Assembly: GCA_009869945.1 (NCBI GenBank)
Contig: WIXG01000330.1
Span: forward strand, 1 to 64,000
Length of the DNA: 64,000 nucleotides
Source: Mesaphorura yosii
Lineage: Eukaryota; Arthropoda; Collembola; Poduromorpha; Tullbergiidae
Reading direction: 5' to 3'
Shown here one piece after another: positions 247 through 46,891 of this stretch; positions within the stretch are counted from its first letter, which is position 1; every line of letters starts with the position of its first letter. Made by a program: the position numbers and the translations under genes. The notes under the pieces are model-generated. The model saw only the letters and a list, made by a program, of their open reading frames with translations. It did not search any database and was not told the DNA's origin.

Positions 247-1282
247 GCTCCACTGCAGTTGGAAAGCTTCTGTACAAACAGAGTGCGTCGACAATGAAAA
301 GGACTAGTTTCGAGTTGGGAGGAAACGCCCCGTTCATTGTGTTTGAGTCTGCGGACTTGGACAAGGCCGTAGAAGGCCTGATGATTTCAAAGTTTAGAAA
401 CTCTGGCCAGGTAAGAAATAAAAATTGTTTAGAACATTAGAAGGACGAATAATATGCTAATTTTAATTCTTAACTCTCTAGACGTGTGTCAGCACAAATC
501 GTGTTTTTATTCATCAAAGCATCATGGAAGAATTCGTTGGGAAAGTTAAAGACGCAATGTCGAAGCTTGTGGTCGGGAATGGAATGGAGCCAAACACCTC
601 CGTTGGTCCACTCATTAATCACGCACAGTATGAGAAGGTAATTCTTACCGCGAAGTTATTTCTTGATGGTGTAAAACACTGATTTTTTTTGTTCAAAAGG
701 TGTCGTCGATGGTGAAAGATGCTATCTCCAAAGGTGCTCAAGTGCTCCAGGGCGGCGGTCCACATTCTCTCGGGAAAACGTTTTATCAGCCGACTTTACT
801 CACTGGAATAAACGAGCAGATGCTCTGTTATAACGAAGAAATATTCGGGCCCGTTGTTTCCATTAAAAGGTTCGGAACATTGTACACCAATCATAAATTT
901 TAATGTTCATACTGGCTGAAGTATTTTTATGGGATTATTATTAGCTTTAAAACGGAGGAAGAAGTGCTGAAAGCAGCAAACAGCACGCGAAGTGGTTTGG
1001 CAGGCTACTTCTACAGTAATGACGTGAGGCAAATATTTCGTGTTGGGAAGAACTTGGAAACCGGAATGGTAATACGGAATGAAAGTAGTCCCTAATTTGC
1101 CGATCCTTTTATCAAATCACATGCATGTTTTGCTTTAGATTGGAATCAATGAGGGCATAATCTCGGCTGCTGAAGCCGCGTTCGGTGGGATTAAAGAGTC
1201 TGGTTTCGGGCGTGAAGGTTCAAGTCACGGACTGGATGAATACACTTACGTGAAGTACCTTTGCGTCGGAAACCTCTCATAA
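247..1282 (+). CDS. ALDH5A1: Succinate-semialdehyde dehydrogenase, mitochondrial (3' part)
   Basis: C-terminal half of an NAD-dependent aldehyde dehydrogenase of the SSADH (ALDH5A) family, which oxidises succinate semialdehyde to succinate in the GABA shunt in mitochondria. Five exons are visible: 247-410, 482-637, 700-869, 945-1068 and 1139-1282; all junctions are GT-AG and keep frame, and the first exon starts after one base of a codon from an exon off the left edge. Seen: the catalytic Glu in FELGGNAPF, the catalytic Cys in GQTCVSTNR, the EEIFGPV motif, and the C-terminal [12 protein letters not shown] stretch typical of SSADH. Odd: the family usually has Cys-X-Cys here, but the second Cys is Ser (AGC at 491-493). 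The protein ends KYLCVGNLS. Bases 1-246 look like intron. Family call is firm; another ALDH5-like paralogue is possible. Confidence 0.93.
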
Positions 1283-2486: not shown

Positions 2487-2672
2487 ATGAGGATTTTGAA
2501 CAGTCGATCAAATCATATGTACATTCTTGTTACCCTTTTTATGGCTATATTCATATTTATTGCTTCTGCACAACCGATAAACGATACTCTAAAAGCAGAA
2601 AAACGAAGCATTATCGCAAGTGTTAATCCGTTTCTTGGTGTCACGTCAGCGTATGGGTATTTCCGTGGATGA
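2487..2672 (+). CDS. Putative secreted, amidated neuropeptide precursor
   Basis: A single-exon frame of 61 residues. Residues 11-28 are strongly hydrophobic (MYILVTLFMAIFIFIASA) and end in a good signal-peptidase site, ASA|Q. A short spacer follows, then a dibasic KR site at residues 39-40, then 21 residues running from SIIAS to GYFRG and ending at the stop codon. The terminal Gly would serve as amide donor, giving a 20-residue peptide ending in YFR-amide. There are no cysteines. The layout (signal peptide, spacer, KR, peptide with C-terminal Gly) is that of a classical neuropeptide precursor. The mature sequence fits no family I recognise: it is not FLRFamide, tachykinin, PDF, SIFamide or kinin. 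An initiator-like motif upstream and AATAAA at 2801 suggest a transcript of about 400 nt. A chance ORF remains possible. Confidence 0.55.
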   Translation: MRILNSRSNHMYILVTLFMAIFIFIASAQPINDTLKAEKRSIIASVNPFLGVTSAYGYFRG

Positions 2673-2800
2673 GCCACGGAAATTTGAGACCTGGAAAAAA
2701 GAACTACGTAGCTTAAAATTAGACAGACCTCGTACGCGTGACGAATTTTTTGGCTAGCGATTAATTTTTATGGGTCATAAAATGAAGAACGAGAAGAACC

Positions 2801-2806: not shown

Positions 2807-3598
2807 ATTATTTTAGTCGCATCAATTTCTGAAGCTGGGCGGTCGCAGTCGGAGAGAAACACAGGCATTGGCATACATATTCTACATAAGCCTTAACATA
2901 AAGGAGATCACCGGCACTCTAGGCTCTGTGGCGAGAGGATGGCAAGCGGAGCTTCGGTCTTGCGTCTGTCAAATTAAATATCTCTCTTCTTAATATCCGA
3001 CTCCGTCAGATTTTATGAAGAAGTTCAGGAGCCAAGAGACTTCGATTGTGAGGAAGGAGGAGTTTTTCAATGCCGACTGAGTTAACATTTTAATTGAGTC
3101 TTGAAAAAAATCTGGTTACGGCAAGTCACATCGTCAAACTATGATGAGGAAGATGAGAATGGGTCGGATATGATAACTAGTTGATGATTTGAGCGTACGT
3201 TTGATTTTCGGGTACAACGGAAAACTAAAAAGCTATGGTGAAACTCTTGATATTCTGAAAAAGGTACTCATGGAATACGGGAATATCTGCAGTCTGCAGA
3301 AAAGCAGAAGTCGTCTTAAGAATCTCATGGCTACCCGAAATTTGCAGTTGTTTCACTTGAATTCTCCTTCCAAATTATTATGACACCCCCACAACATGGA
3401 TTGTAAAAAATTGAAAGGATGAAAGCGAGCGGCCCAGATCATCTCATCGGATCACTCTGACTCGCATTCTTTGTCAGTCTCTCTGTCGGAACTGAGAGCT
3501 CAAGAAATATGACGGATTGTGCCAAACTCAAGCCAAATAAGCTCAGAGTTGATTGATTTCAGTTGAAATTGGCGTCAATCAAACGGTTCCGCTTCATT
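2807..3598. other. Intergenic/upstream region of the micropeptide gene
   Basis: No coding frame supported. The last part is probably the promoter or a 5' UTR of the sarcolamban-like gene: an acceptor-like TTTCAG ends at 3562 and an initiator-like TCAGTC begins about 3597. Confidence 0.35.
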
Positions 3599-3634
3599 CA
3601 GTCGACACTCAAAACAATCAGTCATCAAAACACG

Positions 3635-3739
3635 ATGAGTGGCGATGACATCAATCGTGAGGCCAAATCACTGGTGGTAAATTATGTGATTTTGTTGGTG
3701 CTACTGGCCATCTTGTGGCTTCTGTGGTCCGGGGTATAA
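3635..3739 (+). CDS. Sarcolamban-like SERCA-regulating micropeptide 1
   Basis: A complete 34-residue frame with A at -3 of its ATG. It has a short polar head (MSGDDINREAKS) and one transmembrane helix, residues 13-31, running LVVNYVILLVLLAILWLLW. Size, single-helix design and the head-to-helix junction match the sarcolamban/sarcolipin/phospholamban group, which binds SERCA in the muscle sarcoplasmic reticulum and lowers Ca2+ uptake. The LVVNY segment aligns with LFINF of phospholamban, placing an Asn where phospholamban has its functionally important Asn34. The second micropeptide gene lies 1.9 kb downstream on the same strand. Function is inferred from form and pairing. Another small membrane peptide class is possible. 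Confidence 0.68.
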   Translation: MSGDDINREAKSLVVNYVILLVLLAILWLLWSGV

Positions 3740-5565
3740 ATTTTCCACCATAATCGTATGTCAATGTTATCAAAAAGACACATCTCATTGATTCGTTTTG
3801 ACTCCCACAGCTTTGATTTAGAAATGACTTGGAATTGATAACATAGTTACGCAACGTGAACACACTGAATCAGGTAAGTCAATATAATATATAGACAATG
3901 TATCGTTTGGAAAGAAATGGAATAATTTGATCTTGACCAAAGGAGTAACGTGTAGATAGGCCAGTATAAGTAGATCTATATCTTACAGATTTAACTATAA
4001 TCTGAGGCATTGCTAGGGATCAGTCAGGATGATAGCAAAGGAATTACGGGTTACCTCTCAACGAAAACTGTTGAAGGTTAAGCATCATTTCTGCTTGATT
4101 CTTTCATAGTGAACTGTGTCGTGTTGCTTTGAGTCCGGTTCTCTTTGTCAGTCTCACTCTTCGCACGCCTGCTTTTGACCAGAGAACCTGTCTGTTCTTA
4201 GAATTGCCTGAAATTTCCGACGCTGACAATTAGATTTCTTATGACTTAGTAGAATCATATTTGCGAGTCCCTTTTGAAAATCGATTCTTCAACATATTCC
4301 TCACACTTCTGATTGTAGATTTCACGCAAAAATTAATTTAAAAAAAATGAAAAGTAATGAAATAAGGAGTTCCTTTGGTATGAGTTCGCTATTTGAGTCT
4401 TCGATTGAATGTCCTCAAAGCGACGTGTATGTCGAAGTTTCTATTTGATCATGGTAGCTGATTGGTAGCATATGCCCGTCGAGTCTGTCCTGTCCTACTA
4501 TTTCTTACGGAAATTGGTTTTCATGCTATCAAGTCTTAAAGCGTCCAAAAACGCATTCAGTGACAGTCTCAACTTCCGGATGCTAAAAGTTTGACTTGCT
4601 GTCTCAAAGTTAAATGCGAAAGCCGATCCAAGAACGGCGGATAATTAAGTGAATTTGCTTTCATCTTTGCCCTCCAACTGTGCCCAGTGCATTGGTGTCT
4701 CTCTTCTTTCCACTTGTCAAGAATGCGGCCCGGCAAATTCTTCCATTCTTCGTCCGTCAGCATGCAAATAAACGAGACTTTGCCGTTGTACACGAATGCC
4801 CGCACTTCATTTCAGAACCCAATGCGACCGAATAATCTAGTGTAACGAGTACTCGAAAATTATTAAGCTGGTTGCGTCTCTGCCGCAGGTTTGAGTCTCT
4901 TCATCTGTCATTGCATAATGAAATTTTTCTTGCCTCAAACCTCTAAAATAATGCACGATCTGAAAGGAGAAGAAAACGGCTCATTTTCTCGTTCCTTTTG
5001 TGTATCTTTGTTGTGATCTTTTCCAAGAGTAATAATCAGACGGTTATTGGCACCATCGAGGCAAGACAAAGATTTCTTTCATCTCCTCCATTCACAGTTC
5101 TCAACACAGTTTCACGACAGTTGGAAGTTGATAATTGCGGCATTGTGAGTTTATTTATTCTTCGACAATAAACGTGCATAGGTATTCCTGATTCCAGCAC
5201 GCGTACAGAATGTGGCATTGTTCTTGAATCTGAAATCTGTGGGCCGTAAACAAAAAACCTCTGTTTGAGTCCAGTCGTAGTAAATAGTAAATAGAATCTA
5301 GAATCTTAGTGCTTGATCTGACTTGAGCCTTTATCTAAAACCACACTATTTATTTCATTGTCTAGCCGCAATAATGCATGGTGTTGTTACGTGTCTGTCC
5401 AGCGCAGTAAAATAAATTTCAAAAAAACGTGGTTACGTATGCTTTCAGTGTGAACTAAATTGCATTCCGAAGATTTGTACTGTTCTTTTAGAATAGTTCG
5501 GAGTATTTCATGTGTAAGGTATTTTATATTCATGAGCTCCTTCTTTTCGCCAGATAAGTGCTAAA

Positions 5566-5667
5566 ATGGACACCAAAGGTTCTGAGACATATAACTTGAT
5601 CGTTACATATGGCATTCTGCTGCTCCTTCTGTGCGTGCTTTGGTTCCTGTACACATCATTCACTTAA
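5566..5667 (+). CDS. Sarcolamban-like SERCA-regulating micropeptide 2
   Basis: A complete 33-residue frame with a strong start context (AAAATGG), 12 nt after a good splice acceptor. It has a polar head (MDTKGSETYN) and a transmembrane helix from about residue 11 to 29 (LIVTYGILLLLLCVLWFLY), ending in an aromatic tail, TSFT. Drosophila SclB has the same plan: SLFTTF, a leucine-rich helix, then LLYAFY. The Thr-aromatic pair (LIVTY against LFTTF) keeps the register of the SERCA-contact face. It differs from the first peptide mainly by Thr instead of Asn at the phospholamban Asn34 position. It probably shares one transcript with micropeptide 1. Role inferred. Confidence 0.68.
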   Translation: MDTKGSETYNLIVTYGILLLLLCVLWFLYTSFT

Positions 5668-6166
5668 CTGGAAGCAAATTTCCCGCCTGGACATGACTCA
5701 AATCACTTGAAATTAGTCAAAGTACGTCAGAGCCTTAAGATTCGCAAAATATATTTCTAGGGTCGCGTCGTCAGAGAAACGATGAGACGGTTCTTTATGC
5801 ACGGTTTATGAGCACGGTATGTACAACAGAATGATCTCTCTCTAATCCTGAGTTTTTGTGCTACAGAGTGCCGTCAACCGTCAGGCAACAAAATGGACAC
5901 CATTTTCTTATCACTTCTTTCTAATTTACACACGCACCGTCCTGAAAACAACTCATTGGCTTCCGCCCGATGGGCTCATTGAATTGATGAAGACCTGTAC
6001 AACTCCGCATCAGAATTCTTTCTCCGAATCAAATCAGTCATTACAATTAAAGTAATCAGTCGTGCCTTTCAAATTAACTCCGTAGCTCTGTTTTGTTCTT
6101 GTAGTTAATTACAGCCGTTCAAAGAAAATATTATGTTTTGCAAACACTTCCTTCGGATTCTTCAAC

Positions 6167-6172
6167 AATAAA
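6167..6172 (+). terminator. Poly(A) signal candidate for micropeptide transcript
   Basis: AATAAA about 500 nt after the second micropeptide stop; it would end the proposed dicistronic transcript near 6190. Confidence 0.4.
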
Positions 6173-6736
6173 ACACGTCAAATGTTTTTTACGTACTTCA
6201 TACGCGCATTGAAGTAGGCGAGTTATTTTTAGCCTGGATCATCACACAAATCAGCTTTCCAAGTCAAATTTTTGGCTGTCTATCAAACATATCTGCTTCC
6301 ACTGGCAAACTGCTAAGAGAACCAGCTGTTGCTACTCCGAGTATTTTTGTCCTGCCCAACGACCAAGCGTTTTGAGTCAAGATTAGTGGAGACCAGTTAA
6401 AGATCCACTCAAAACTCCATGAACCAGAACCCCGACTGCGTAACTCGTCTGTATACAAGATCTTGTAGATGTACGCACTTTTCATAGACTATTCTCGGGA
6501 CTCATCACAGTATAATCAGTATAATCTTACCTTTTGTCTTTTGCCGATATTTGTTTTCAGTTTTGGCTGCCAACTCAAATCAACGGGGTTTTCAACAAAA
6601 CCTGCAACCATCCGTCAAATACGAAGCACATGACACGTGCCCAAATCTACTCTGCCTTGTACATGCAAAATGAAGAACGGGAAAATGTAATCACCATTAT
6701 ATGCCGACACGTTTTAAAACCAGAGATTCTATGTGT

Positions 6737-6885: not shown

Positions 6886-9024
6886 TTACTTCAGCTGCAA
6901 TAACATGGAGGCAGGATTCTCCAAGTAAGACTTCCATAAATTCGAAAATCTTGCCATTGTAGCACCATCGATGAGCCTGTGATCACCAGACCAGCTCACA
7001 TTGAAAATATTTGCTCGAACCACGTTCCCATCCGAGTCAAATCGGGGCAGCGCCTGACACGTTCATAAAGTGTTGGACAATGCTTTAATTAGAGAGGGAA
7101 CCATCATTTCAGGGAATTTAAATGTGTACCTGCACTTTGCCTAGAGCACCGATGCAAACCTCCGGCGGCAGAATGACAGGCTTGGCGTAAGTTCCGCCAA
7201 TCTAAATTCGCATCAAGTGGAAGTTACGGTCAGACAGTAATTTGAGCAAGTGGTACAACTTACGGAACCAATGTTGGACAAGGTAAACGTCCCTCCAGTC
7301 AAGTCGTTGGGTCCCAAAGTGCCATTTAAGCCCAGTTGGTGAAGTCTATTCAAATCAGCTGCAATGTCTAAAATACTTTTGCTCTGAACATTTTTGACGT
7401 TTGGAACAATGAGTCCACTTTTGGTGTCCATCGCCACGCCAATGTTATGCGCTCCCTGTGAAAATATGCGTTTGAATTTCAAATTATGTATTATTTCAAA
7501 TTAATTAGAGATGCAACATTACCTTGTAAATGACGACTTCCTCCGCCGTATCCAGTGATGAATTAAGAATAGGAAATTGTGTCAATGCCAATGATGCGCT
7601 TTTAACGAAGAAAGGCATGTAAGTGATTTTAACGCCATACTCTGCGCCCAAGTTTTGAAATTCTTTTCTCAATTTTATCAGTTCGTTCAAATTTATCTCG
7701 TCGCAATAGCCAAAATGGGGGATGGCCTGAAACAACCGAATCACAAACACATCATTTGTAACACAAATTGGTTAAGCAAAATGCTGTAAAATCAGCAAAT
7801 TATTCTTACATTTGCAGCGGTCATAGTTTTCATCATAGTCTTCGTGTAACCCTTAATTGACTCCTTCCTGTCTGCGACAGTAATCGATGAAACGGCTGGC
7901 AATGGTTTGAGTTGAGGAGTTTCTTTCGAGGTTGTCTTGGGCAGTGGTTGAGCAAGTGTTGGCGCACCGAGCTTTATAGGGCGAGAAGCTGCAACACTTT
8001 TGGGAGTTTTGCCATCGATGTAATTTTGAACATCTTCCTTCAGTATTCGTCCATCTTTGCCAGTTCCCTCAATATCCTTCAAGTCGACCTGTCATCATAA
8101 AGTTCAAAATGAACATCGTGTGGCAGTTTATTGCCGAAATGAGTTGCATTACCTTGTGCTCAGATGCTATTCTCCTGACTGCTGGAGTCGCTAGGACTTT
8201 ATCTCTTCCTGGTTCTTCTTCTGGGAGTCGAATACTCGCTTCCGACCTTCCAACTTGAATGGCATCTCCTTCCTGAACCTCACGGAGGCTGTCGTCTGCC
8301 GAACACATGAAATGGTCGTCATTTACTTTACACCCTGCCTTGAATTATGTTATTGGCCATTTCCTACCAGAGCCTCCACTCGACTGTTGAACCTCAATGT
8401 CAACTAAAGGTGCACCAACAAGAGCCATGTCATCAATCTTGTAATAGATTTTCTTTATTATGCCATCAAATCGCGAAGTAATTGTTACTGATGCTTTGTC
8501 GCTCTGCACTTCACAGATCTGATCGAACTGATTAACCTTATCTCCTTCCTTGACGAACCTGTCAAAAATAGTACAGTCAGAAGTGAGGCTGTATTTCAAT
8601 TGCCTGTTATACTGTGTCTTACCACTCCTTAATTGTAACTTCTTTGATTCCCTCACCAATATCAGAGAGCTTGAATGGGACTACAGGACTCAGCACCGAC
8701 GGTGTTGTGTGAATTATTCGACTAGATTCTAAATGACGGTTTCTCTTGGAACTAGATGTCTTCGAGAAGTGCGCTATGTTGAGACGTTCACATACTCCAT
8801 TAGCAGCTCCACAACTCCTGATTTCGTTGGACAAACTTCGGGTCAGCCATACCCTGCTGGCTCCCTGTTAAAATGATAGAATTTTAGGGTCAGATATGTG
8901 TTTTACATCACACATGTAAAACTTTGTCAATGAACAATGAATGTGCAAGTCGTGTTATTCCTTTCCTTACCTTAATGGCTCCATTTAGACAAGGTAAGCG
9001 AAGATACTTGTACAAATGAACCAT
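6886..9024 (-). CDS. DBT: Dihydrolipoyl transacylase E2 of branched-chain 2-oxoacid dehydrogenase
   Basis: Core E2 subunit of the mitochondrial BCKDH complex, which moves acyl groups from valine, leucine and isoleucine breakdown to CoA. Nine exons on the minus strand: 9024-8971, 8864-8623, 8558-8368, 8295-8153, 8088-7810, 7726-7523, 7455-7264, 7201-7130 and 7053-6886, giving about 514 residues, normal for the family. Seen in order: a basic, Ser/Arg-rich mitochondrial presequence; a lipoyl domain from [10 protein letters not shown] with the lipoyl-lysine motif VQSDKASV near residue 120; a peripheral subunit-binding domain ([27 protein letters not shown]); and the catalytic acyltransferase domain with [23 protein letters not shown] and the active-site His in DHRLIDG close to the C-terminus. 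DBT is favoured over pyruvate or oxoglutarate E2 because of the single lipoyl domain and these motifs. It looks intact. Confidence 0.96.
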
Positions 9025-26413: not shown

Positions 26414-29174
26414 TTAAAATTTCTTGGACAAGTCTAGAAGACTGTTCGCTTCACGGCTAGGACCGAGCCTGGAAAATTTACTTAAAATGTTAAACACAGC
26501 ACTGTCAGAAGCTCGAACGTGGCCGGAATCTTGGTGTTCATTAATGCGGTATCTCAGAGCCTCCGCCTGCTCGACCGAGTTGCTAGCTGTCTCAGGTGAA
26601 GAGGGAGAAGAGTACGTTTCGAAAGGCGCGTTCAAATTCAGATACCGGCTCAGACTCTCTCGCAAGTCAGACGACAGGGGTAGACTGTTCGAGCCTTCCC
26701 CTCCTCCAGCTGCATGACTCTCAGACCTTTCATCATGATTTGAAGGCAACTCAGAGCCCGACAAACTACTGTCAGGGCTTGACCTTTGCGTTGACTTCGG
26801 ACTTGCAGCGCCTCCTTTTCTTTTCGGACGCCGAAGCAAATGTCGCTCCTTGACCTTGTACTCCAGAGTTGAATGAGGAACTCCAAAGTAGCTTCCTATG
26901 TGTTTACCATTATGTCTGGTTAAGTTCTTAATGCTTGAGAGTATTTATCGTTTATTACCTGCCCGATGTACGCTCATCTCTCCATTTTGAACGGCCTTCA
27001 CCGCTTTCAGGAGCGCATCTCGATCGTAATTCCGGTATTTCCCGCGTTTTGGGCGGCTTTTCTTCTCGTCGACATCCGCAACGGATTTATTGGCAACATT
27101 TTGACCCGAACCGGCAGCTTCATGCCTGAGTTCACTTGTACTCACGCCATTGGAATTCACTCCGTTACTTGAGTCGAGTTCCGAGTCGTAGTCGTAAGCA
27201 GAATTGTAGTCAGATTTTAGCTTCTTCCAGGAACCTGCGCCATCCACACGGTGAGTCGGAGTTCTGAAATGTATGAAATCGAACATATTGAGTGAATGGC
27301 GAGCCACGTCGGATTGAGAGTTCAATATTTCGCTTTTACCGCATGCTCATTTGGACGCCGCCATTTCTGTTACTTCTCAGACTTCTCGAAGTCGACTTGT
27401 TGTTTACAGATGGAATTTTGAGAATTGTGTCATGAACTCCGTTCGAGATGTCGCTATTCCCGTCTTCACTGCTATCATTGGGACAATCTGCCGCTCCATC
27501 ATTTGGCAAGAACGATGTGTCTGACCCAAAACCCTGCCTGGATAGTTTACTTCGAAGCCACTCCTTTAGCACCTTCTTTTGGGGACTGATCGCCTCGCCC
27601 GGACTGTATCCCTCTGTCCCATCCTCTCCGTTATCATTGTTTGGATACTCGTCGTGAATAGAGTAAAATGGTGCCAGGTTTGTACTTATTCCAGGATTTC
27701 GGTCTTCAAAATCAGCTCTTAAGGAAGGATGCTCAGCCAAAATCCTTTCCTGGACATTCAGAGGACTATTTGGCATGTTGGAGTTGACCTCCATCATGTT
27801 GACCCTTTTCCGGTCCCCGCCTCCGCGAATGAATGCTCGATCCTTCCCCAACTTGTAAACCTTGTTCCGCAAAGTAGAACGTGGGATTCCATAGATCACT
27901 GCAGCACGCCTAAAATCAAAGATTTCAATTATTTCTCTCTGGATTGGGCAAAGAAATTAGAAAATGGTGACAAACCCTAACGAACCCTACCTCGTGCCTA
28001 GTTTTCCACTCTGAATATCCTTCAGCGCCGCCTCAAGTTCTTCACTTGTGTACCCTCTTCCTGCTCTCTGATTTGATCTTGTCACAACTCTGCTCGTCGA
28101 ACTACTAGACGCATTTCTTGCGCTTTTTCTAAATCCATTTTCAGTCAGATCGTTGCTAGTTTCTATGATGGGGAGCGTTGAGTAATTTCCTTGTACAATC
28201 TCGTTCTCCACATTTCTAGCAAACAAAGCAGTAACGTCTATGAAATTGATAAGAGGTTCAACACTTCAATGAAAATCCGCTCACTTTTTTTTCTTAGTCA
28301 GATCAAGAGGCTCGTCTGAGATGGATTCAGTTACTAAAAGACCTTGAGGAATGGCTAAGTTCACACCGGCGTTTGATTCGGAACCGAATTTTGAGGTAGA
28401 AAAGCTTCTAGCTGCTTCTGTGGGGGCCTGAAAAGAAATCAATACAGTTTGAGAGTCTGTATACTTCGAAGTGGAATTTAGCAAAAACGTTTCTTACTAT
28501 AGTTTGTTGTGCTAGCTGCTGCTGCTGCTCCAATGACTGTAGAAATAATAGACGCTGCGCATCTAGCATTTCAAGCATGCTGTTGTTAAGATTCAGTTGG
28601 TTGAGCTCTTCTGGAATGGCATTGTCAGTCGGAACTCCGGGAACCCCGAAGCCACGGTTGAAGAAGTACCAGTACGGCAAGAAACGAAACAAGTTTTCCA
28701 AAATATCTGAATCAGAAATTCAGGAATACAGTCTGAACTGCGAAGTTTGGAAACTGCCAAGAGACTAACCATTCTTGTCCTCGTTCGTTTCTTCTTCGGT
28801 TGTTTCGGACGGATCAATTTGGGAGTCCTGCGAACAAAGCGGGGATTTAATCGACTCGTTAATTGCAGAGCTCGAGTTTGCACAAGACCCCGACGCCATT
28901 TCAGCCAACTGATCGGCAAGGTCAGATGCACTTGACGTACGAGTGAGTTTGTGTCAGAGGTCTGTCTCGGTTAGACTGCACTGATCAACTGGCAGCATAA
29001 TTGGTGAGATTTGGGGATTAAAACACAGGAATGTACGTACATTTGCTTCTGGTTCTTCGGACACTTCAGTTGGGTCAAAATCGGAAGCCGTTTCCTGAAG
29101 CCAAACTTGTTGTAGCGGATATATTTGTTCCCATTTCTCTTCGCCAACCAGTTCTCTTCCAACGCTCTCCAAGC
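26414..29174 (-). CDS. Eip93F: Ecdysone-induced transcription factor E93 (pipsqueak HTH, LCOR family), first exon not found
   Basis: Nuclear factor that specifies adult programmes downstream of ecdysone in insects. Eight minus-strand exons: 29174-29041, 28908-28770, 28706-28498, 28427-28285, 28215-27991, 27909-27340, 27263-26959 and 26895-26414, about 734 residues, in phase. The first listed exon begins with two bases of a codon, so an upstream start exon is missing. Seen: an N-terminal block beginning GLESVGREL like LCOR-family N-termini; a polyglutamine-containing stretch (SLEQQQQLAQQ); a CtBP-binding motif (EPLDLTKK); pipsqueak HTH 1 (RAGRGYTSEELEAAL to YGIPRSTLRNKVYKLG); pipsqueak HTH 2 (KRGKYRNYDRDALLKAV to FGVPHSTLEYKVKERHL) with a basic tail RRPKRKGG; and a second CtBP-like LLDLSKKF at the very C-terminus. 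Both HTH domains are split by introns. Identity is firm; the N-terminus is incomplete. Confidence 0.93.
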
Positions 29175-44078: not shown

Positions 44079-46891
44079 TTACCGAAAAGGCAAAGACCTG
44101 GGACGATCAGCACCTTCTTTAACTAGTGGTTTGTGATATTCTCGTCCTGAGCGCGAGTGTATAGTAGCCCAGCAGTGCTCGCAGTAGTACTAGTGTTCAA
44201 AACATTCAAGCGTTAGCATTTGCGATCATTTCACCGGAATTGCTCTAGAATGTTTAGTAAATACCTGCAGACAAGTTACGTTTGCACAGAAAAACGGAGC
44301 GAACTTTCCTCCACATCTTCCTCCGCCGCACTCGTCGCAAAGTTGATCATCCAGAACGTACGGTTTCACCTCGACCTGACAATGTACAAGAGGACACACA
44401 TTCAGTAAGGAAGCAAAATGTTTTATCCTTGAACTGTTTAGTAACTGCAACGTCCAAGACATTTTTCCTCATACGGTCATAAGATTTGAAAGCAGATGAA
44501 TAGAAAATCGAAATCATTACCCGCTTGTCAATATCACCATGCTGGAGTTGAACAAACCGAGCGGATATAGCAGCAATGTAGCTTTGTTGATTTGAAAAAG
44601 CTACTCTTCCAGCTCCCTTTGGATATTTCAATTCAGGATCGGTGTCAATGCCAGCATAACAAACGCCTCCATACAGACGATCCATGATCATAGCAAGCTC
44701 GACTGAACAAACAAGGACGCATAGGCTGAGTAACTTCAGAGGCTGAAGAAGAATTCGTCTGGCCACTGCATTGATAGTTGTACGTGTATCTTACCTGCTT
44801 TCAACGGGCGTGGAACTCCACCAACAAACACAGTTTTTCGAGGATCTAACGGCATTGATGCATCCAAAACAAAATCTGCATCCGAAAGTCTCCAGGGTCG
44901 AATCTGTACAGGCTTATCCTTAATAGTTGGTGACGAGACACAAAGATACAGCTTGTCATCATCTTGAATGCAAGCATCAATCAACTGCTGTACAGAACTT
45001 TCCTCCTGAAGTCGGAATTCGAATATTAGTTAAGAAGATTTGAGTCAAATACTCGTGTATTGTATAGTTAATTACCTGAAATAACAAGAACGCATATCCC
45101 TTTGGAGGGAAGTAAGATTTGCTCTCCGCTTTATGAGGCCAATCAACAACTAATGGACCAAAGCGTCTGAAGCTAGCAGTTATCTCTTCTGCAATGTTAA
45201 ATATTAGTTAGCAGACGTAATTTAAATTGGGGTGATTGGCAGATTTAATTTCAGTTATTTCGTATTATCAGCAAGGAAACGAAATGTCATTAGCACAAGC
45301 TCACCTTCATCAATGTCTGGTGGCAAACCACCAACGAACACCTTTCTCGAGAAACGCTCATTGCCATCGACGCCTGAACCAGCACCAGCCATTCCGACAG
45401 ACATTCCCAATCGCGGTGATAAGCTAGTTACAACTGTTGCAGCACCAGTTTGATCAATTTCATCCAACAGAAAGCTACCTCCACCGGAAACTACGTGCTC
45501 GTCTCCCACAGTTGCATAATTCCATTTGGCTACAAATATAATGCAATAAAGTGATGTCATGATACACTGGTAACACGTCGTATGGAAGATAGGTCCATTT
45601 GACTTTGTCCTAGAGCCCCAGAGCTGTCGAGGCCACCATTAGGTGTGTGATCTTACCAGCACGGTTGTCCGGTTCACCGGTTCTCATCATCTCAGATAGA
45701 TACTGCTCCAAGGAACGCATATTATCAAGAGGCCCAGCACCATTACGCTCCTAGGAATAAATGCCAATTTCATGTTAAATAACATTACTGGAAATTCACA
45801 AGTATCATAATTTCTTGCTAGCCTGCTTCCATTATCATTGAGAAGAAAACACGATGCACAGGAAAAGTGGTTTACCTGGTAAAGCTGATCTGGCTCGGTA
45901 CCAAGTCCAACATTATCAAAAGGAGCTTGAAATCCTTTTCCGGTGAAGCCCCGACGAAACGATGGCTGCATCATCATGCCAGGATTTGGTTTACTGCAAG
46001 TGCAAATAATAAATGGAAATATTACTCACTTGTCATCGCCGTCACTACAGAATTGTTTCTCGGGTTTCTGTTCCGATAAACTTCTTAAATTGAAAAATTA
46101 CAAATTTCACTTGCTTTCCAAGTTGGTTTGGCTAATATGTCGTGCACTGTCTCAAGGCCTAACCGAACATATAAAGATTTTCTTAATTTTGACTTTGAAA
46201 TGTAATTATGCACCTACAGACGTGCATAATCGAAACCTTAATTCAGTATTGAGGCTCGGGTCGAGAAAAAATAATGTAAAATCATCTAAATTTACCCATA
46301 AAGAGAGTTGCCAGTCTTCAGCCCTGGTCTCATTTGCTGTCTCGGTTGATAGCCAAAATTCGGAGGAAATCTTCCTAATCCTGCACCAGCACTATTCACA
46401 GCATGTCGTTGGTTTTGCTGAGGAAAAGGTGACCTTCTCGGAACATACGGCCCATTTTGTGTCATTCCTGAAACATATGTACAATTAATAAGGAGCAGGG
46501 GAAGAGATGACACAAATAACTTACCCAAGTTTGGAGGAGGTGGTGGACCGTAGTTTTGATAATAGAAGCCATTTTGTTGGAAACCCAGCGTCGAGTTGAA
46601 GTAGTAGTTGTAGTCCTCAGTTCCTGGTGGTGGTGGTGAAGCCCAAACAGGTGCTAAGTCTGGTGGTCCTCCGATCGAACCTCCAATAGTCGTGGCAGCC
46701 ACAGTGGAGAGTCCACTGATGCTGGATGTCGTTACGATTCCACCGATACCATTGCCACTCCCCGCGACGACAATATTGTTTCCACCGCTTAACTTTAACC
46801 CAATCTCATCATTGTTGGCGACAGCAGCACTGTTACTCTCTGGCGTTGAGGTTGTAGAATTGAGCTTGAAGGTATCATTCTCTTCACTCAT
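44079..46891 (-). CDS. orb2: Cytoplasmic polyadenylation element-binding protein, CPEB2-4/Orb2 type
   Basis: Cytoplasmic RNA-binding regulator of translation that binds U-rich elements in 3' UTRs. Ten minus-strand exons: 46891-46525, 46467-46296, 45993-45876, 45750-45657, 45529-45305, 45188-45076, 45005-44795, 44702-44521, 44375-44265 and 44189-44079, in phase, 567 residues. Seen: a low-complexity N-terminus rich in Gly/Ser/Thr, then aromatic and proline-rich (YNYYF, FYYQNYGPPPPP); RRSPFPQQNQRHAVN as in CPEB2-4; RRM1 from KVFVGGLPPDIDEEEI (about residue 313); CVSSPTIKDKPVQIRPW; RRM2 from KTVFVGGVPRPLKAVE (about 420); and a Cys/His zinc-binding end (CDECGG, CGGKFAPFFCANVTC, YYCEHCWATIHSRSGREYH). 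It ends at PRSLPFR without the usual two further residues. Start chosen at MSEENDTF; an in-frame ATG 16 codons upstream gives a less likely hydrophobic extension. Confidence 0.96.

Follow-up and report, generated by a model that had tools for sequence, protein, structure and literature searches.

Two short open reading frames on the forward strand of contig WIXG01000330.1 of the collembolan Mesaphorura yosii raise the question of what kind of peptides they encode and whether these are read from one RNA or from two. The first-pass annotation of the window (the whole stretch of 64,000 nucleotides that was analysed) had reported frames of 34 and 33 residues, and both coordinates and lengths are exact: peptide 1 occupies 3635–3739 (+) and reads MSGDDINREAKSLVVNYVILLVLLAILWLLWSGV, and peptide 2 occupies 5566–5667 (+) and reads MDTKGSETYNLIVTYGILLLLLCVLWFLYTSFT. 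They lie on one strand, 1.9 kb apart, and each has its own ATG and stop codon. Genes this short are missed by the usual annotation length limits. We consider it probable that the two frames encode paralogous sarcolamban-like micropeptides that inhibit SERCA, most likely from one spliced RNA.

A survey of ATG frames of 25–45 amino acids on both strands of the window returned 282 frames. A 19-residue hydropathy of at least 2.0 is reached by seven of these, with peptides 1 and 2 ranked first (2.71) and third (2.55), in keeping with the single helix and polar head that had been read in each frame. The motif L..[NT][FY]..[LIV] occurs in four of the 282 frames, and only peptides 1 and 2 combine it with a hydropathy of at least 2.0. 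We infer the same topology for both, in which a short polar head precedes one tail-anchored transmembrane helix, the whole peptide being about 30 residues long.

The two frames are flanked by an aldehyde dehydrogenase exon upstream (window 709–903, +) and by lipoyl and 2-oxoacid acyltransferase exons downstream (7216–8680, −); no Rfam family or tRNA turned up when the window was scanned for them. Elsewhere in the window there are a Psq-type helix-turn-helix exon (27339–27956, −) and an RRM_7 exon (44739–45029, −). At 2487–2757 (+) there are two overlapping short frames, the first of which opens with a stretch resembling a signal peptide and has a KR site (MRILNSRSNHMYILVTLFMAIFIFIASAQPINDTLKAEKR...) and the second of which terminates in ...RDEFFG. 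Neither has a Pfam match at E ≤ 0.1; this region may be an intron-containing gene for a small secreted peptide.

According to Pfam, Sarcolamban (PF21898) is the top family for peptide 1 (E = 0.00096, 19.3 bits) and for peptide 2 (E = 0.0012, 19.0 bits), the latter having a second, weak match to DUF3377 (E = 0.062). Neither peptide reaches the curated PF21898 cut-off of 27 bits, which is a line drawn by the database and not a biological feature, and we therefore name them sarcolamban-like. As a yardstick, the Drosophila sarcolamban A and B (SclA and SclB) sequences score 68.8 and 65.4 bits against PF21898, and sarcolipin scores only 16.2 bits (E = 0.0073) against the Phospholamban model, missing its cut-off of 25. 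The sub-threshold scores would also be expected if the two were single-helix membrane micropeptides of another kind, with a likeness to sarcolamban that arose by convergence of Leu-rich helices, and it is in keeping with such convergence that PF21898 yields sub-cut-off matches in two of 14 control genomes.

Set against this, a PF21898 profile search of the whole genome (93,006,257 bases) gave just four matches at E ≤ 10, and two of the four are peptides 1 and 2, ranked first (17.7 bits, E = 0.50) and third (17.3 bits, E = 0.62, tied in E with the second), although each is insignificant alone at this scale. The remaining two matches have no ATG-to-stop frame across them. Both were considered as a third paralog and taken as chance: the match on contig C381 (L004; genome E = 0.62) has a stop inside it, and the match on contig C439 (L006:1501–1587; genome E = 3.14) falls in a stop-to-stop frame, SEAKRLTCTFLCIICFFFLLWEYNWQMS, with no Met at its head. 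By eye, the C439 frame fits the sarcolamban spine and is without an acceptor just before it. With the peptides themselves as queries against the genome, each retrieves itself and the other and nothing more at E ≤ 10 (two candidates scored per search); the cross-matches are weak in 93 Mb (E = 0.11 and 0.067), as is the BLASTP match of peptide 1 to peptide 2 (13.1 bits, E = 0.085). A phmmer search of PDB sequences with peptide 1 gave three matches. Sarcolipin is the second of them (E = 0.29), its Asn aligned with that of peptide 1; the other two are designed helical proteins, and that these are found as well, one of them above sarcolipin, is a further point for convergence. Peptide 2 had no match among the PDB sequences, and a two-row profile of both peptides retrieved no regulin from the PDB, only a rhodopsin and a designed pentamer. 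The protein database returned no homologue of either peptide, a result which says little because that search requires shared exact words.

The likeness was examined pair by pair in an ungapped shuffle test of peptides 1 and 2, SclA, SclB, sarcolipin and phospholamban, with head, helix and tail permuted apart and 2000 shuffles per pair. The score of peptide 1 with peptide 2 (66, against a shuffle mean of 29) and that of peptide 2 with SclA (60, against 26) were reached by none of the shuffles, and neither was the score of 46 for peptide 1 with SclB. Few reached the scores of peptide 1 with SclA (46; 3/2000), peptide 1 with sarcolipin (49; 12/2000), peptide 2 with sarcolipin (46; 21/2000) or peptide 2 with SclB (38; 46/2000). 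Phospholamban gave weak results, 193/2000 for peptide 1 and 803/2000 for peptide 2. The known members compared with one another span a similar range: SclA–SclB and sarcolipin–phospholamban 0, SclA–phospholamban 15, SclA–sarcolipin 82, SclB–sarcolipin 141 and SclB–phospholamban 561 of 2000. On these counts the likeness of the peptides to fly sarcolamban is firm at the level of sequence, that to sarcolipin is fair and for phospholamban no direct likeness is demonstrated, and the sarcolamban-like identity proposed in the first-pass annotation is backed by the shuffles as well as by the sub-threshold Pfam matches and a consistent register.

The seven best alignments, of peptides 1 and 2 with each other and with SclA, SclB and sarcolipin, fall into a single unforced register, and that of peptide 1 with phospholamban shares it. 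The alignment of peptide 2 with phospholamban is shifted, as is SclB with sarcolipin among the known members. The common register puts Asn34 of phospholamban over Asn16 of peptide 1, Thr14 of peptide 2 and Thr10 of the fly peptides, a polar residue at this position being also what is found in the SERCA-inhibiting regulins. Relative to Asn34, seven positions are invariant in peptides 1 and 2, SclA and SclB: Glu at −7, Leu at −3, Ile at +3 and Leu at +4, +7, +8 and +11. The weak likeness to phospholamban is what convergence would give, but the likeness to sarcolamban survives shuffles that keep the helix composition, and the single register and the Glu at −7, common to the heads, also argue against convergence, which we regard as improbable. 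The Asn/Thr difference at the Asn34 position, also noted in the first pass, is real in the sequence and is supported by the sub-threshold Pfam matches, the shuffles and the consistent register. Asn34 of phospholamban and Asn11 of sarcolipin contact Thr805 of SERCA and are critical for inhibition, and DWORF, an activator, has Pro15, according to PMC8396278. Proline, the kink mark of DWORF at the Asn34 position, is absent throughout peptides 1 and 2.

The codons of the pair bear on whether these are genes at all. Over 31 aligned codons, and with only two copies to compare, pS is 0.69 (near saturation) and pN is 0.44; seven of the 13 identical residues have different codons, and codon position 2 is identical in 20 of 31 codons, against 13 of 31 for each of positions 1 and 3. 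A pN/pS as low as this arose in 1/2000 codon-order shuffles, a control that also reflects the likeness used for aligning the pair. This pattern suggests an old divergence with the residues kept and not a recent copy of the DNA. Short frames are common, as the 282 in the window attest, and two of them could in principle be open by chance; we hold this to be very improbable, since a genome of 93 Mb has these two mutually similar family matches only 1.9 kb from each other, on the same strand and each with an ATG and a stop, and their silent sites are near saturation while the residues have been kept.

A candidate partner is present, as SERCA was found on contig C36. Its M6 stretch, which includes Gly801/Thr805, agrees with the mammalian sequence at every residue, and Phe88, Phe92 and Gln108 of M2 and the Trp of M9 are kept. 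To our knowledge SERCA grooves are broadly conserved, and so the match is compatible with a regulin partner without being discriminating. Apart from the M9 Trp, the groove contacts compared are those listed in PMC8396278. Each peptide would sit in the ER/SR membrane with its short polar head in the cytosol and its one tail-anchored helix in the M2/M6/M9 groove of SERCA, lowering the calcium affinity of the pump, and the Asn of peptide 1 and the Thr of peptide 2 would face Thr805/Gly801.

Whether one RNA would carry both frames turns on the splice sites and signals around them. The perfect donor previously noted at 3874, CAG/GTAAGT, is present exactly; it is the only donor in 3500–6300 that matches eight or nine of the nine consensus bases, and across the 64 kb there are two perfect donors (MAGGTRAGT) on the + strand and one on the − strand. 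The acceptor is there too, CCAG ending at 5553 with ATG2 starting 12 nt later; this good site is not unique, as the scan of 3500–6300 gave 17 acceptor-like sites including it. Between them, a putative intron of 1680 nt (3874–5553, +) would run from the CAG/GTAAGT donor to CTTCTTTTCGCCAG. The putative exon 1 (3600–3873, +) is drawn from this donor and an initiator-like TCAGT at 3598–3602 (+), a motif which we take to be the arthropod initiator; it would place +1 at 3600 and give a 5′ UTR of 35 nt, although with 99 copies of TCAGT on the + strand of the window the site at 3598 is weak evidence. The putative exon 2 with its 3′ UTR (5554–6190, +) is drawn from the acceptor and an AATAAA poly(A) signal at 6167–6172 (+). 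Introns at the five SERCA junctions inspected fit in stretches of 101–131 bases, so that an intron of 1.68 kb would be long, though not strange. The joined RNA of this model is 911 nt in length: ATG1 follows a leader of 35 nt, a spacer of 146 nt separates frame 1 from ATG2, and ATG2 has the context AAAATGG; the ATGs in the spacer, at 3758, 3764 and 3824, are all in one 26-codon frame (3758–3838, +).

The dicistronic RNA of the first-pass annotation thus fits the splice sites, and further AATAAA signals within the putative intron, at 4767, 5167 and 5411, would also allow separate RNAs. Both peptides would then still be real SERCA regulators, so that this alternative overlaps our own explanation in all but the single RNA: the RNA for peptide 1 would stop at an intronic poly(A) site, and that for peptide 2 would begin with another first exon that is spliced to 5554, or at a promoter within the intron. 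Apart from the intronic signals, it draws on the position of ATG2, 12 nt past the acceptor with no earlier ATG in the exon, and on the three spacer ATGs that precede it. The sole strong donor in 3500–6300 follows peptide 1, however, so no alternative first exon inside this interval has a strong donor, and in the fly a single transcript carries both peptides (PMC8136307). Separate RNAs are possible but the less likely arrangement, and the splice sites lead us to lean towards a single dicistronic RNA, in which 3600–3873 would be joined to 5554–∼6190. Translation of peptide 2 would then depend on leaky scanning or reinitiation past the 26-codon spacer frame, unless the peptide comes from an alternative RNA.

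The origin of the pair was approached by a quartet comparison of peptides 1 and 2, SclA and SclB over 26 shared columns. The identity sums are 28 for the split that joins peptide 1 to peptide 2 and SclA to SclB, 22 for peptide 1 with SclB and peptide 2 with SclA and 18 for the third split, with bootstrap shares of 0.89, 0.11 and <0.001 (0.90, 0.10 and <0.001 with BLOSUM62). These values, from four short sequences, mildly favour separate tandem duplications, or homogenization of the copies, over an old A/B pair. More tentatively, the pair may have arisen twice, by separate duplications here and in Drosophila that each led to two frames on one RNA; the copies here would have become two inhibitors that differ in strength, a sarcolipin-like one with Asn and a sarcolamban-like one with Thr, and a single message would supply them in a fixed ratio.

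The host genome has 66 matches to the R&R cuticle domain, a family typical of arthropods, and four to odorant-binding proteins; the insect odorant receptor (7tm_6) gave no match in a search without a positive control, by which absence is not proved. No COX1 was found. Taken together, the odorant-binding-protein and receptor results suggest an animal other than a winged insect. The sarcolamban-type pair is thereby extended to an arthropod that, with the same reservation, gave no sign of an insect odorant receptor. Peptide 1 keeps the vertebrate-type Asn and so links the fly form, with Thr, to sarcolipin, with Asn. The two sequences can serve as a template in searches for further genes of this type, and the difference between them allows a natural test of how Asn versus Thr affects inhibition.

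Among the known systems, phospholamban (PF04272) is the most distant: it has the L-x-x-N-[FY] core in common with peptide 1, in the same register, but only 4/24 identities with each peptide, weak shuffle results and peptide 2 out of register. Its cytosolic helix carries the Ser16/Thr17 site, and peptides 1 and 2 have no such helix. Sarcolipin (PF05366) is closer, with 7/25 identities to each peptide in the same register, Asn11 matched by the Asn of peptide 1, a Trp at +12 and a short tail, although its RSYQY luminal tail is missing from both peptides. Closest are the Drosophila sarcolambans A and B (pncr003:2L, PF21898), like peptides 1 and 2 a pair of tandem one-helix peptides, which have in common with them the spine E-x3-L-x2-[NT]-[FY]-x-I-L-x2-L-L-x2-L-[WY]. 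The fly Thr at the Asn34 position is matched by peptide 2, whereas peptide 1 differs with its Asn; position +12 is Trp here and Tyr in the fly; the peptides are longer (34 and 33 residues, against 28 and 29), as are their heads; and the pairs within each species are more alike than the pairs across species. PMC8136307 describes SclA and SclB as two peptides of 28 and 29 residues from one transcript, an arrangement likely shared by peptides 1 and 2, and a review (PMC11475943) calls the fly peptides redundant. The tandem sarcolamban-like pair of M. yosii is thus an extension of a kind already known from the Drosophila pair and not a new system.
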